Below, in pieces: positions 25,788 to 32,352 of a stretch of 64,000 nt of DNA (position 1 is the stretch's first letter; each line of letters begins with the position of its first letter). The position numbers were made by a program, and so were the translations under genes. Source of the stretch: Chloroflexota bacterium (GTDB lineage Bacteria > Chloroflexota > Dehalococcoidia > Lucifugimonadales > UBA1127); contig JAPONS010000080.1 of NCBI GenBank assembly GCA_026713825.1, forward strand, positions 1 through 64,000, written 5' to 3'. Below the pieces are notes generated by a model. It made no database searches and had not been told where the DNA came from. It was given only the letters and a program-made list of their open reading frames with translations.

Positions 25788-26405
25788 ATGGCTGAAGCAT
25801 CCCCAATTGAGACCCGCCTCGGCTACGTGACGGCATGGCGCACGTGGCGCGTCTGGTCGTCGCCCGATAGCCTGTCGCTGCACAGCGTCGCCGCCGCGCC
25901 GTCGCTCGGGGAGTGGCAGCCCCTGCAACCGATGGAGGCCCGCTGCGGCTACCGTGAGATGCGCCCGCCCGCCTGCCAGTGCGAGTCCTGCCCCGGCGAC
26001 GGCAACCACTGCGGCATCTACGCCTACCGCGAGGCCCCCAGCGCCGTCACCCACGCCATGGGCGTCGTCGGCCGCGTCGCGCTCTGGGGCACCGTCATCG
26101 AGCACGCCACCGGCTACCGCGGCCAGTTCGCCTACCCCATAGACTTCGCCTACGGCCACTGCACCTGGTGCCGCTCGCCGGAGAGACCCAAGCTGCTGCC
26201 CTTGGAGGAATCGGTGGTGCTGGCCCCGGAGCGCGGAGAGGGCTGGCTGGTGTGGGCGTGCTCCAAGCACGCGCAGGCAGCTCTGGCGAGAGCGCGCGCG
26301 CTTGAAACCGGAAAGGCGTCGATGGGATGGGCGCCGATGCCCGGCCTGGACGTGGCGCGTGCCATCGCGGAAGTCTACAGCGTCGAGGTGGCCGCGGGCG
26401 GCTAG
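25788..26405 (+). CDS. Conserved hypothetical protein with a Cys-rich motif
   Basis: A 205-residue protein of no family that I can name. Visible traits: an N-terminal segment RTWRVW, a cysteine cluster (CQCESCPGDGNHCGIYAY, about residues 64-81), then VALWGTVIEHATGYRGQFAYP, a pattern I associate with unnamed proteins of other high-GC bacteria, and a further Cys pair (HCTWC). The cysteines may bind a metal. No signal peptide or membrane segment. It is last in a row of small plus-strand genes. Confidence 0.6.
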   Translation: MAEASPIETRLGYVTAWRTWRVWSSPDSLSLHSVAAAPSLGEWQPLQPMEARCGYREMRPPACQCESCPGDGNHCGIYAYREAPSAVTHAMGVVGRVALWGTVIEHATGYRGQFAYPIDFAYGHCTWCRSPERPKLLPLEESVVLAPERGEGWLVWACSKHAQAALARARALETGKASMGWAPMPGLDVARAIAEVYSVEVAAGG

Positions 26406-26851
26406 GGCTGCCCAACCGCCCGCGTGGGCGCTTCCACGAACGCCACTCGCGGCGGCGTCACCAGGTCCGCGATGGTTGTCCGCTCGAGGATCGTGTTGAT
26501 CGCGTCCTCCACCGTCTGCCAAACGTTCCGCTGGGCGCAGCAGTCGGACAGCGTGCAAGCGTTCTCGTCGTCGAGGCAACCCACAAGCGCGTTGGACTCG
26601 TCGAACGCGGACATGACCATGCTCAGATTGATGTCCTTGGGTTCCATCGCCAGCATGTGCCCGCCCAGGGGGCCTCGCAGCGTCGTAGTGAACCCGTGCT
26701 TGCTGAGCGTGTGGAGGATGTGGTTGAGGTAGGGCTCAGGCATCGCCATGGTCTTCGCGACCTGCGTGGCGTGCACCGGTCCCCTGCCCTTCTGCTGGGC
26801 AAGCGCAACAAGGGCCCTGACCGCGTAGTCCACCTTGATCGGAATGTGCAT
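26402..26851 (-). CDS. Rrf2-family transcriptional regulator of the suf operon
   Basis: A 149-residue Rrf2/IscR-type regulator: winged-helix DNA-binding part (residues 5-65, with KVDYAVRALVALA and LRGPLGGH) and cysteines Cys92, Cys99, Cys104 and Cys105 in the place where Fe-S-sensing Rrf2 proteins bind a cluster. It is the last gene of the sufB-C-D-S-U row and 39 bp after sufU, so it most probably senses Fe-S status and controls this operon. A candidate operator lies at 32294-32310. The start ATG at 26851 has aaggagggg upstream. Confidence 0.9.
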   Translation of the reverse strand: MHIPIKVDYAVRALVALAQQKGRGPVHATQVAKTMAMPEPYLNHILHTLSKHGFTTTLRGPLGGHMLAMEPKDINLSMVMSAFDESNALVGCLDDENACTLSDCCAQRNVWQTVEDAINTILERTTIADLVTPPRVAFVEAPTRAVGQP

Positions 26852-26890: not shown

Positions 26891-27346
26891 CTACTCCGTC
26901 GTTACCTGCTCCGCCTTCTTGGGGTCTAGTGAGGCCGCCATCGTGTGCCACGCCAGGCTGGCGCACTTGATGCGGTTGGGAAAGGCGCAGACCCCGGCCA
27001 GCGCCTCGAGCTCGCCGAGGCTGCCGGAGTCGAAGTCTTCCCCCGGCTCGCGCGTGACCATGCTGTGGAAGACCTCGAATAGCGCCCCTGCCTCCTCGAC
27101 GGACTTGCCCTTCACGTTCTGCGTCATCATCGACGCCGACGATTGCGATATCGCGCACCCGACGCCCTGAAACGCCACGTCGGCGATGACCCCATCCGTG
27201 ACCTTCAGAAACACCGACACCTGGTCGCCGCACAGCGGGTTATACCCATCGGCGGTGTTGCTCGCGTCCTCCATCGTCCGCTTGTTGCGCGGCCGGTTGT
27301 TGTGGTCCAGCACCAGCTCCTGGTACAGCTCGACAAGGTCACTCAC
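26891..27346 (-). CDS. sufU: SufU Fe-S assembly protein / sulfur acceptor
   Basis: A 151-residue SufU/IscU-like protein with the three conserved cysteines in YNPLCGDQ, FQGVGCAIS and RIKCASLAWH. In SUF systems of this type it is a zinc-dependent sulfurtransferase that accepts persulfide sulfur from SufS. The start is GTG at 27346, overlapping the sufS TAG stop by one base. Start [21 protein letters not shown] is typical. Confidence 0.95.
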   Translation of the reverse strand: MSDLVELYQELVLDHNNRPRNKRTMEDASNTADGYNPLCGDQVSVFLKVTDGVIADVAFQGVGCAISQSSASMMTQNVKGKSVEEAGALFEVFHSMVTREPGEDFDSGSLGELEALAGVCAFPNRIKCASLAWHTMAASLDPKKAEQVTTE

Positions 27347-28575
27347 TAGCTGAACACCTCAAAGGTCTTGTGGATGCCCTCCACCAGCGCGTCTATCTCG
27401 CCCCTGGTGTTGTAGAAGGCGAACGACGCCCGCGCCGTCGCCGGTATCTGGAACCGCTGCATCAGCGGCTGCGCGCAGTGGTGCCCCGTGCGAATGGCGA
27501 TGCCCTGCGTGTCGAGCACCGTGCCAATGTCGTGCGGGTGGATGCCGTCCAGCACGAACGACAGCACGCCGGCCTTCTCCCGCGCCGTGCCGATAAGCCT
27601 CAGCCCCTCGATGGCCTGAAGCTGCTCCGTGCCGTATTCCAGCAGCTCATGCTCGTGCGCGGCCGCCCGCGCCAGCCCGACGCCGTTCACGTAGTCGATC
27701 GCCGCGCCGAGCCCGATCACCCCCGCGATGTGCGGCGTGCCCGCCTCGAACTTGTACGGCAGGTCGTTGTAGATGGTCTTCTCAAATGTGACCGACTTGA
27801 TCTGCTCGCCGCCGCCCTGGTACGGGGGCATACTCTCCAGCCATTCGCGCTTGCCGTAGAGCACGCCGATGCCCGTCGGGCCGAAGAGCTTGTGGCCGGA
27901 GAAGGCGTAGAATTCGCAGTCCAGCTCCCGCACGTCGACCGGCAGGTGCGGCGTCGCCTGCGCGCCGTCCAGCAGCACCGGGATGCCGTGCGCATGGGCC
28001 AGCGCGACGATGTCCTTCACCGGGTTGATGGTGCCCAGCGCGTTGCTCATGTGCACAATCGAGACCAGCGCCGTCTGCGGGCCCAGCATGCTCTCGTACT
28101 CGTCCATGAGCAGCTCGCCGTCGTCGTTGATGGGCACTACCCGGAGGCGGCCGCCCTGTTGCTCGCACAGGATCTGCCACGGCACCACGTTGGAGTGGTG
28201 CTCCATGTTGGAGATGACCACCTCGCTGCCCTGCCCAACGCGCTGCGCCCCCAGCGTCTGCGCGACGAGGTTGATCCCCTCGGTAGTGCCCCGCGTGAAG
28301 ACGATCTCCGCGTCCTCGGCCGCATTGATAAGCTGCCGCACCTTGCCGCGCGCGCCCTCGTATGCCTCCGTGGCCTCCTGGCTGAGCGTGTGCACGCCGC
28401 GATGGATGTTCGCGTTCATGCCCGTGTAGTACGCAGAGAGCGTGTCGATGACCACCTGCGGCTTCTGGCTCGTGGCCGCGCTGTCGAGGTAGACCAGCGG
28501 CTTGCCCCCGATCTCACGGCTGAGGATGGGGAAGTCCCTGCGGACGGCCTCGACGTCGAAGGGCATGGAGGTCAT
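27346..28575 (-). CDS. sufS: SufS cysteine desulfurase
   Basis: A 409-residue PLP enzyme of the group II cysteine desulfurases. The PLP lysine is in [11 protein letters not shown] and the catalytic Cys in [11 protein letters not shown]. It takes sulfur from cysteine and passes it to SufU. The ATG overlaps the sufD stop by four bases (ATGA), and its stop overlaps the sufU start, so these genes are translationally coupled. Confidence 0.97.
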
Positions 28576-29918
28576 GCGGTCCTCCCCTGATGTCGAAGTG
28601 AAGCGGTGATGAGCTGCTCCAGGTGCACGCGCAAGGGCGTCAGCCCCACGTGTTCGAGCACCTCATTGGCGAAGCCATGCACCAGCATGCGGCGCGCCGC
28701 CGCCTCGTCGATGCCCCGGCTCTGCAGGTAGAAGAGCGCCCCGTCGTCGAGCTTCCCGCACGCCGCTCCGTGGCCGCAGCGGACGTCATCGGCGTAGATC
28801 CACAGCGCGGGCTTGGTGTCTACCTCCGCCTCGTCGGACAGCAGCAGGTTCTTGTCGGACTGCTTGGCGTTCGTCTTTTGCGCCGCCTGCCGCACGGTGA
28901 TGCTCCCGTGGAAGACTCCGCGCGACTTGCCATTCAGCACGCCCTTGTACACCTGCTCGCTCGTTGTGTGCGGCGCGATGTGCTCGACCAGCACCTGGTT
29001 GTCGACGTGCTGGCCCTGGTTGGTCATGTAGAGGCCGTAGAGCGTGCACTCGCTCCCCTCGCCCTCCAGCGCGACGCTCAGCGTGTGCCGCGCGATTGCC
29101 CCGCCGAAGTCGAAGGCGCCCGACGTGAAGCGGCTGTTCCGCCCCAACCGTACCTGCGCCGACCCGACGTGGTACGCCGGCAGCGCCTGCTGCTGCAGTC
29201 GGCACGCGTCGAGCTGCGCCCCCTCGGCGAGGACGTACTCGGACACAGCATTGGTGAGCGAGATCGTGTCCGTCAGGCCGCCATAGCTCTCGATGACTGA
29301 TGCCTTCGAGTTCCGGCCCATTGACACCAGCGTCCGTGGCTGCGTCACGGAGGACTGCCCCTCCGACGATGACAGGTAGATGAAGTGGATGGGCTCCTCC
29401 ACAACGGTGTCGTGCGGCACGATGAGCGCCGCGCCGTCGCGCAGAAAGGCGGTGTTGAGCGCCGTGAAGCCGCTCTCGTCGTAGGGAGCGTAGTGCCCGA
29501 GGTGGTCGCGCACCAGGTGCGGGTGGAGAGCCATCGCCTTGGCGAGGCTCGTGACCGTCACCTGTGGCGGGAGCGTCGGCATCGAGGTCAGCGACGGCAC
29601 CCAGTGCCCGTCCACGAAGACCATGCGGTTCCACACGGAGCCGCCCATGATGTGCTGGTCCAGCGCATCGGTTGCCACGCGCACCGGCGCCGCCGGCGCA
29701 AGGTCGTCGAAGGCCGCGTTCGCGATGGGCCCGATGTCCGTGTACTTCCACGCCTCGTTGCCGCGCCGCGCCGTCGGAAACCCGACCTCCTCGAACTTCG
29801 CGATGGCCGACTCCCGCAGCGCGTGCAGCTCGGCGGGCACGGCGGACGACGACGGCCCAATGACGGCGTTCCACGCCTCCACGTACCGTCGCTCCAGGGT
29901 TGCTGCCTGCTGCGTCAT
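28572..29918 (-). CDS. sufD: SufD scaffold subunit
   Basis: A 448-residue SufD of the SufBC2D scaffold. The N-terminal helical part precedes a right-handed beta-helix core, and the C-terminus has the conserved [37 protein letters not shown] region. It lies 20 bp downstream of sufC. Confidence 0.95.
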
Positions 29919-29938: not shown

Positions 29939-30697
<759 letters not shown>

Positions 30698-30735
30698 GTC
30701 ACTCTACCGTTGTCTTGAATTTTCCCGCGCCCCAA

Positions 30736-30786
30736 CCGTCATTCCCGCGCCCCCGACCGTCATTCCCGCGAAAGCGGGAATCCAGG
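30736..30786. repeat. Family A repeat and a half copy between sufB and sufC
   Basis: A half copy (30736-30752) followed by a full palindrome (30758-30786, arms cattcccgc/gcgggaat then ccagg). Its place inside the suf operon could shape differential stability of sufB versus the rest of the transcript. Confidence 0.8.
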
Positions 30787-30824: not shown

Positions 30825-32267
30825 CTACCCCACAGACCCCTCCAGGCTGACCTCCAGCAGTCGCGTCGCCTCGATGGCGAACTCGAACGGAAGCTGCTGG
30901 AAGACCTCCTTGCAGAAGCCGTTGATGATGAGCGAGTTGGCGTCCTCCGACGACATGCCCCGCTGCTGGCAGTAGAAGAGCTGCTCCTCGCTCACCTTCG
31001 ACGTGAAGGCCTCGTGCTCCAGGTGCGCCGAGCTGTTCTGCACCTCGACGTAGGGCGTCGTGTGCGCCCCGCACTGGTCGCCGATGAGCAGCGAGTCGCA
31101 CTGCGTGAAGTTCCGGGCGTCCGCCGCACGGGGCATCACCTTCACCAGCCCGCGGTACGTGTTCTGCCCGTGCCCCGCCGAGATGCCCTTGGAGATGATC
31201 TTGCTGCGCGTGTTCTTGCCCAGGTGGACCATCTTGGTGCCCGTGTCCGCCTGCTGGTAGCCGCGCGTCAGCGCGACCGAGTAGAACTCGCCGATCGAGT
31301 TGTCGCCCTGCAGCAGCACGCTTGGGTACTTCCACGTAATCGCCGAGCCGGTCTCGACCTGCGTCCAGGAGATCTTCGAGTTGTCGCCCGCGCACTTGCC
31401 GCGCTTGGTCACGAAGTTGTAGATGCCCCCGACGCCGTTCTCGTCGCCCGGGTACCAGTTCTGGATGGTGGAGTACTTGATCTCCGCGTTCTCCATCGCG
31501 ACGAGCTCCACCACGGCGGCATGGAGTTGGTTTGTGTCGCGCATTGGCGCGCTGCACCCCTCGAGGTAGCTGACGTAGGAGCCCTCCTCCGCGACGATGA
31601 GCGTCCGCTCAAACTGACCCGCCTCGGCGGCGTTGATGCGGAAGTAGGTGGAGAGCTCCAGCGGACACCGAACGCCCTTGGGGATGTAGCAGAAGGAACC
31701 GTCGGAGAAGACGGCCGAGTTGAGGGCGGCGTAGAAGTTGTCCGTGTACGGAACGACTGAGCCTAAGTACTTCCGTACGAGCTCCGGATGCTCCTGCACT
31801 GCCTCGTTGAACGACCCAAAGATGATGCCTTGCTTGCTCAGCGTCTCCTTGAACGTCGTCGCGACGGAAACGCTGTCGAACACCGCGTCCACCGCGACGC
31901 CCGCCAACCGCTTCTGCTCCTCCAGCGGGATCCCCAGCTTCTCGTACGTCGCCAGCAACTCCTTGTCGACGTCTTCGAGACTGGCTGGCTGGTCCTTCTT
32001 GGGAGCGGCGTAGTACACGCCGTCCGCGAAGTTGATGGGCGGGTAGTGGACGTTGGCCCACTTTGGCGACTGCTCCTTCTCAACTAGGGTGAGAAAGTGC
32101 CGGAAGGCCCGGAGCCGCCACTCCAGCATGAACTCCGGCTCCTGCTTCTTTGCCGAGATCCAGCGGATAGTGTCCTCGGTGAGCCCGCGGGGAGCGGTCT
32201 CCTCCTCGATGTCCGTGACGAACCCGTACTTGTACTCGGCCTGCGCCAGTGACTTGGGCGATACCAT
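30825..32267 (-). CDS. sufB: SufB scaffold subunit
   Basis: A 480-residue SufB, the scaffold on which Fe-S clusters are built. The characteristic beta-helix region with [21 protein letters not shown] and the C-terminal [20 protein letters not shown] segment are present. It is the first gene of sufB-C-D-S-U-rrf2 and follows a clear promoter (32323-32352) and a palindrome (32294-32310). Confidence 0.97.
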
Positions 32268-32293
32268 AGGCAGGACCCCTTCAATGGCAGTAG

Positions 32294-32310
32294 TAGACCA
32301 AAGTGGTCAA
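32294..32310 (-). promoter_or_regulatory. Candidate Rrf2-type operator upstream of sufB
   Basis: Near-perfect palindrome tagaccaaagtggtcaa (core GACCA-N3-TGGTC, outer positions one mismatch), 27 bp before the sufB ATG and just downstream of the predicted transcription start. A regulator bound here would block transcription. The Rrf2 protein of this operon is the natural candidate; binding is inferred. Confidence 0.55.
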
Positions 32311-32322
32311 GAATCTACAGGT

Positions 32323-32352
32323 AGTGTACGGCGGGCGATTTGGGGGTGTCAA
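32323..32352 (-). promoter_or_regulatory. Putative suf operon promoter
   Basis: On the minus strand: TTGACA (32352-32347), 18-bp spacer, TACACT (32328-32323). Start of transcription would be near 32316, immediately before the palindrome at 32294-32310. Confidence 0.6.

Follow-up and report, generated by a model that had tools for sequence, protein, structure and literature searches.

A conserved IscR type 1-like operator at the suf promoter of a Chloroflexota order and its probable Rrf2 reader

The suf operon and its promoter region

The window (the whole 64,000-nucleotide stretch of DNA analysed) carries a suf operon on its minus strand, in the order sufBCDSU-rrf2. The products of sufB (30825..32267; NF008773/TIGR01980), sufC (29939..30697; TIGR01978), sufD (28572..29918; TIGR01981), sufS (27346..28575; TIGR01979) and sufU (26891..27346; TIGR01994) all score above the cut-offs of the respective models. 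The last gene (26402..26851) encodes a 149-residue protein of the Rrf2 superfamily, with 111.7 bits against PF02082 (cut-off 30) and 115 bits against TIGR00738 (cut-off 73.3), presumed to bind the operator described below. It is the single Rrf2 gene detected in the window genome (G000; 2.64 Mb, 96% complete), and one Rrf2 gene was likewise detected in each of four other members of the genus. The 127-bp gap between sufB and sufC contains a REP-like palindrome, GGATTCCCGCTTTCGCGGGAATGACG, with partial tandem copies (30722-30783). This element occurs about 40 times genome-wide at two or fewer mismatches, and could form a hairpin setting the sufB/sufC ratio.

A promoter is recognisable in the sequence upstream of sufB, with a -35 element TTGACA (32347..32352) and a -10 element TACACT (32323..32328) separated by an 18-bp spacer. 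It lies on the minus strand at 32352-32323; an earlier sequence-only reading of this DNA had proposed the same TTGACA-18-TACACT elements. Promoter spacing places the probable transcription start near 32316, 7 nt past the -10 element. The same reading had picked out the palindromic core GACCACTTTGGTC (GAC-N7-GTC; 32296..32308), describing it as following the promoter at once and ending 27 bp before sufB. The core is in fact found 14 bp downstream of the -10 element and 28 bp before the sufB ATG (32267-32265), corresponding to approximately +8 to +20 of the inferred transcript, with GAAGGGG (32276..32282) as the likely sufB ribosome-binding site. When the core is extended to the 17 bp originally claimed, the outermost pair is complementary (T...A) but the inner added pair is not (T-T).

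The exact GACCANNNTGGTC dyad has 10 copies in the 2.64 Mb genome, so the bare 13-mer is unremarkable, could be due to chance, and was dropped as stand-alone evidence. A second half-site, CTACCAAAGTTGACA, overlaps the -35 element and was considered as an echo of the operator; it was also discarded, since G005 reads CTCAAGTTGACA at that place and the half-site is therefore not conserved.

Conservation of the site within and beyond the order

SufB was located in 184 of the 197 genomes of the order, and the DNA upstream was read for about 110. Most of these upstream regions contain a 25-bp palindrome, ATTGTTGACYA-NNN-TRGTCAACAAT, with sites drawn from at least 30 families. At the window promoter this order-wide operator is present in degenerate form, with GACCACTTTGGTC as its core, and reads ATTCTTGACCACTTTGGTCTACTAC (32290..32314, minus strand; centre 32302, 21 bp past the -10 element). 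The window genus carries this weaker form, with ATTGTTGACCAACTTGGTCTACTAA in G002 and G004; at the window site it is the right arm (GGTCTACTAC) that deviates from the order consensus. The proposal of a regulatory palindrome hinged on its conservation among suf operons, and conserved it is, throughout the order.

De novo counts recovered the dyads ATTGT-N15-ACAAT in 47 and GTTGA-N9-TCAAC in 29 of 110 sufB upstream regions, with no dyad exceeding 3 in any of 20 dinucleotide-shuffled sets. A position weight matrix trained without the window's family assigns 21.1 bits to the window site, the next-best position in the 64 kb scoring -0.5. In a calibrated sequence model with three sites from the genus among its input, the sufB promoter takes the top genome-wide rank in all members of the genus, with E=0.007 for that of the window genome. 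With the family excluded from training, the suf site of the window genome still ranks first, but with E=0.16. Given these modest genome-wide statistics for the window genome taken singly, the weight rests on conservation and position: the complete site at this place, unlike the bare dyad, is more than chance would give.

Promoter geometry is similarly constrained. A -35 element matching at 5 or more of 6 positions, with a spacer of 17-19 bp, was found in 91 of 111 sufB upstream regions of the order. The promoters follow the pattern TTGACx-17/18-TAnnnT, and their distance to the operator takes one of two fixed values. In 62 of the 91 promoters the operator is centred 13-15 bp past the -10 element, and in 27 it is centred 21-25 bp past it; the window genus belongs to the latter class, at 21 bp, and its TACACT hexamer is identical in G002, G003, G004 and G005. 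The operator is downstream of the -10 element in all classes, and in both distance classes it overlies the start region, where a repressor would be expected to sit.

The exact order consensus was sought in 84,980 species genomes, where 30 stretches carry it, 21 of them labelled Chloroflexi, Chloroflexota, Dehalococcoidia or SAR202; on the basis of these labels we refer to the order as Dehalococcoidia/SAR202-like. Among the nine others, two Polaromonas copies precede a gene for an IscA/ErpA-type (A-type Fe-S carrier) protein. A copy in Fusobacterium naviforme (L264 2615-2639) lies 23 bp from an Rrf2 gene, itself divergent from a gene for a metal-type solute-binding protein, and in an Acidimicrobiia genome the copy lies before a gene for nitrite/sulfite reductase.

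Kind of operator and kind of reader

The E. coli IscR type 1 consensus is the 25-bp sequence ATASYYGACTRWWWYAGTCRRSTAT (PMC3899308). The site described here is the unique best match to this consensus in the 64-kb window (19/25 on both strands; next 17), and the order consensus matches at 21/25 or more. The 19/25 match equals the 76% reported for site B of P. aeruginosa (PMC3899308). The sequence-only reading had regarded the site as different from IscR operators and possibly a new lineage-specific motif. This view does not hold in light of the type 1 match, the GAC-N7-GTC core shared with RisR, and the exact consensus copies in the two Polaromonas genomes. The type 1 match and the RisR core make the site one of a known kind, and its letters mark it as a variant of the IscR type 1 / RisR operator described long ago.

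Comparison with both systems reveals shared and divergent features. In common with the IscR type 1 sites of E. coli and P. aeruginosa are the 25-bp register of ATASYYGACTRWWWYAGTCRRSTAT and targets that comprise Fe-S assembly and, in relatives, the gene of the regulator. In contrast to those sites, position 3 is T rather than A and position 10 mostly C rather than T, and the operon controlled is suf instead of isc. In M. xanthus, the operator of RisR (MXAN_1152) occurs at risR-sufBCDSUT and isc, with footprinting and repression by holo-RisR (PMC9973013). The order resembles this case in encoding an Rrf2 protein with a sufBCDSU operon, in a GAC-N7-GTC palindrome with AT-rich flanks that overlaps the promoter, and in a regulator with three Cys ligands and a probable [4Fe-4S] cluster that does not retain IscR Ser40/Glu43/Gln44. 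It differs in that the RisR gene opens its operon whereas rrf2 closes it here, and in having GTCAACAAT where the RisR half-site ends in GTCC(t/a).

The window Rrf2 protein remains under every equivalog cut-off tried, namely those for IscR (TIGR02010, 77.8 against 207.55 bits), NsrR (45 against 182 bits), RirA, CymR and the Xanthomonas suf regulator, and is hence filed as an Rrf2 protein working like RisR/IscR rather than as IscR. The four cysteines noted earlier are indeed present, but only three of them (C92, C99 and C105) are retained without exception in 28 proteins of the order; C104 occurs in 6 of the 28, and the ligand set had thus been overstated. Asp8 and Arg12 are invariant in the same 28 proteins. 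The position equivalent to IscR His107 is Arg in 27 and Gln in one, so that the three Cys are present without the histidine of the IscR [2Fe-2S] ligand set (Cys3 + His107). The [4Fe-4S] cluster of S. coelicolor NsrR has Asp8 as its fourth ligand, and this residue forms a pair with Arg12 (PMC5411485). The order's proteins share Cys3, Asp8 and Arg12 with this NsrR at equivalent positions, although the targets here are Fe-S and iron genes rather than NO detoxification. The combination of Cys92/Cys99/Cys105 with Asp8, and Arg in place of His107, suggests an NsrR/RisR-like [4Fe-4S] sensor and not a [2Fe-2S] IscR. The recognition helix of the window protein reads S40P, E43N and Q44H relative to IscR, position 43 being Asp or Ala in most relatives, and its wing residue is R59.

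The operator is present in 89 of 94 genomes with Rrf2 compared to 8 of 16 without (Fisher p=2.8e-5), a statistic in which shared ancestry and functional co-loss are not separated. Five Rrf2-bearing genomes have no standard operator. Of the eight operator-bearing genomes with no detected Rrf2, seven are 70-89% complete and one (G137) 92%. In G158, G160 and G190, where suf and the Rrf2 gene are located on different contigs, a separate operator precedes the Rrf2 gene by 60-80 bp. G001, from the one further genus of the window's family that was sampled, has neither Rrf2 nor operator. The sequence-only reading had named the operon's own Rrf2 protein as the likely reader, a choice well supported by the fact that the genome's only Rrf2 gene is the last gene of the operon. 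Order-wide conservation, co-occurrence with Rrf2 and the sites before stand-alone Rrf2 genes further support it, and this protein very probably binds the operator over the suf start region.

Eight genomes were found to contain sufB but neither Rrf2 nor operator (G126, G001, G029, G036, G027, G075, G086 and G120). Most are small (1.2-1.9 Mb), which suggests that this control was lost in streamlining.

Predicted regulon and mode of action

A survey of the regulon, in which 20 further operator sites were read, places operators before SufT-like genes, most then followed by Mrp/NBP35 (12 genomes), and before a NadA gene in G165. Very strong operators precede genes for FbpA-type ferric-iron binding proteins in G033, G077, G171 and G175 (L225, L226, L227, L233, L234). 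The closest solved structures to these proteins are ferric-binding proteins (E=1.8e-79), and iron uptake would accordingly be predicted to fall under the same regulator. The window genus has an operator between a nitrite/sulfite reductase gene and a gene of the chlorite-dismutase/HemQ family. In the window genome this reductase promoter site (G000:C48:49467-49487, outside the window; L181, L244) is the second-best operator, and the suf and sulfite/nitrite reductase promoters are the top two places of the family-excluded model. It lies 21 bp past the -10 element of a TTGACA-17-TAGACT promoter, as at suf (distance counted by eye), and is much stronger in G002 and G004 (27-28 bits). SufT of the window genome was rejected as a target, its site being a 7-bit remnant compared to a 26-bit site in G003.

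Conservation, position, co-occurrence with Rrf2 and the coherence of the regulon point to the palindrome as the operator by which the operon's last product, an Fe-S-binding Rrf2 homodimer, controls its own operon, a reading to which we assign a probability of about 0.82. We infer binding, cluster type, repression by the holo form and a steric mechanism along the following lines. One winged helix-turn-helix would recognise each TTGACC half-site, and the wings would lie in the flanking AT-rich arms. Protein bound across approximately +3 to +27 would block RNA polymerase, either as it initiates or as it escapes. As long as the Fe-S supply suffices, suf is most likely repressed by the cluster-loaded (holo) protein, while loss of the cluster through iron shortage or oxidative/nitrosative stress would release the site, closing a negative feedback loop.

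It is possible, though unlikely, that Rrf2 binds the site but does so in the apo form, acts as an activator, or responds to NO or the redox state instead of the Fe-S supply. In E. coli, IscR without its cluster occupies type 2 sites and switches suf on; Glu43 keeps this apo form off type 1 sites, which IscR E43A binds cluster-free (PMC5411485). The Asn found here at position 43 and the NsrR-like ligand set are in keeping with such behaviour. Against this, an operator downstream of the -10 element in all classes fits repression better than activation, the regulon consists of Fe-S biogenesis and iron genes with no hmp-type NO gene among the operator sites read, and RisR, which shares the GAC-N7-GTC core, represses as the holo form (PMC9973013). 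That a different regulator (e.g. Fur- or SufR-like) occupies the palindrome while Rrf2 works elsewhere is quite improbable. The eight genomes that keep the site with no detected Rrf2 would agree with this, but the co-occurrence with Rrf2, the operators before stand-alone Rrf2 genes, the IscR type 1 match, the RisR core and the exact copy before the F. naviforme Rrf2 gene all favour an Rrf2 reader.

We give very little credence to the idea that the palindrome acts at the RNA level, through a stem-loop in the leader of suf. The palindrome does lie inside the predicted transcript, and GACCA and TGGTC could pair. However, pairing of opposite positions across 85 sites is close to random (e.g. 55/85 at +-4, 55.6 expected), with a small excess at +-11, and the hairpin was rejected as arm covariation is no greater than chance. 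What is conserved is the sequence, not the pairing; furthermore, the major-class operator starts 1-2 bp past the -10 element and is thus partly untranscribed. A functionless chance palindrome, for which the ten genomic copies of the 13-mer dyad might speak, is barely conceivable given the order-wide conservation and the rank of the site, and is refuted at the conservation level.

Returning to the Rrf2-operator model, a wider form of it could as readily hold as fail. Here, the order's master Fe-S/iron regulator would be a single Asp8-type [4Fe-4S] Rrf2 protein, neither IscR nor NsrR, controlling suf, SufT-like/Mrp, FbpA-type uptake, NadA, the nitrite/sulfite reductase and itself. The operator through which it acts would be IscR type 1-like and placed at either of two fixed positions in the promoter, family f28 having a co-diverged version. 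The analysis predicts, across the order, an operator and a regulon for Fe-S homeostasis in a lineage of Chloroflexota that is almost without cultured members, a subject on which no paper was found in the literature searched, and turns a guess from a single sequence into a directly testable binding prediction. Cultured SAR202 isolates have been reported (PMC10444878). The results also suggest that an IscR type 1 / RisR DNA site is read by a protein whose predicted cluster ligands are different, so that operator and sensor chemistry would evolve separately.

In family f28 itself (L098, L099, L106, L118, L128), the sufB operator is shifted, reading about ATTGCGTACCGAATnGGTCAGGAAT, and the Rrf2 proteins are more diverged (37-44% identity). 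Site and reader may possibly have co-evolved in this family.
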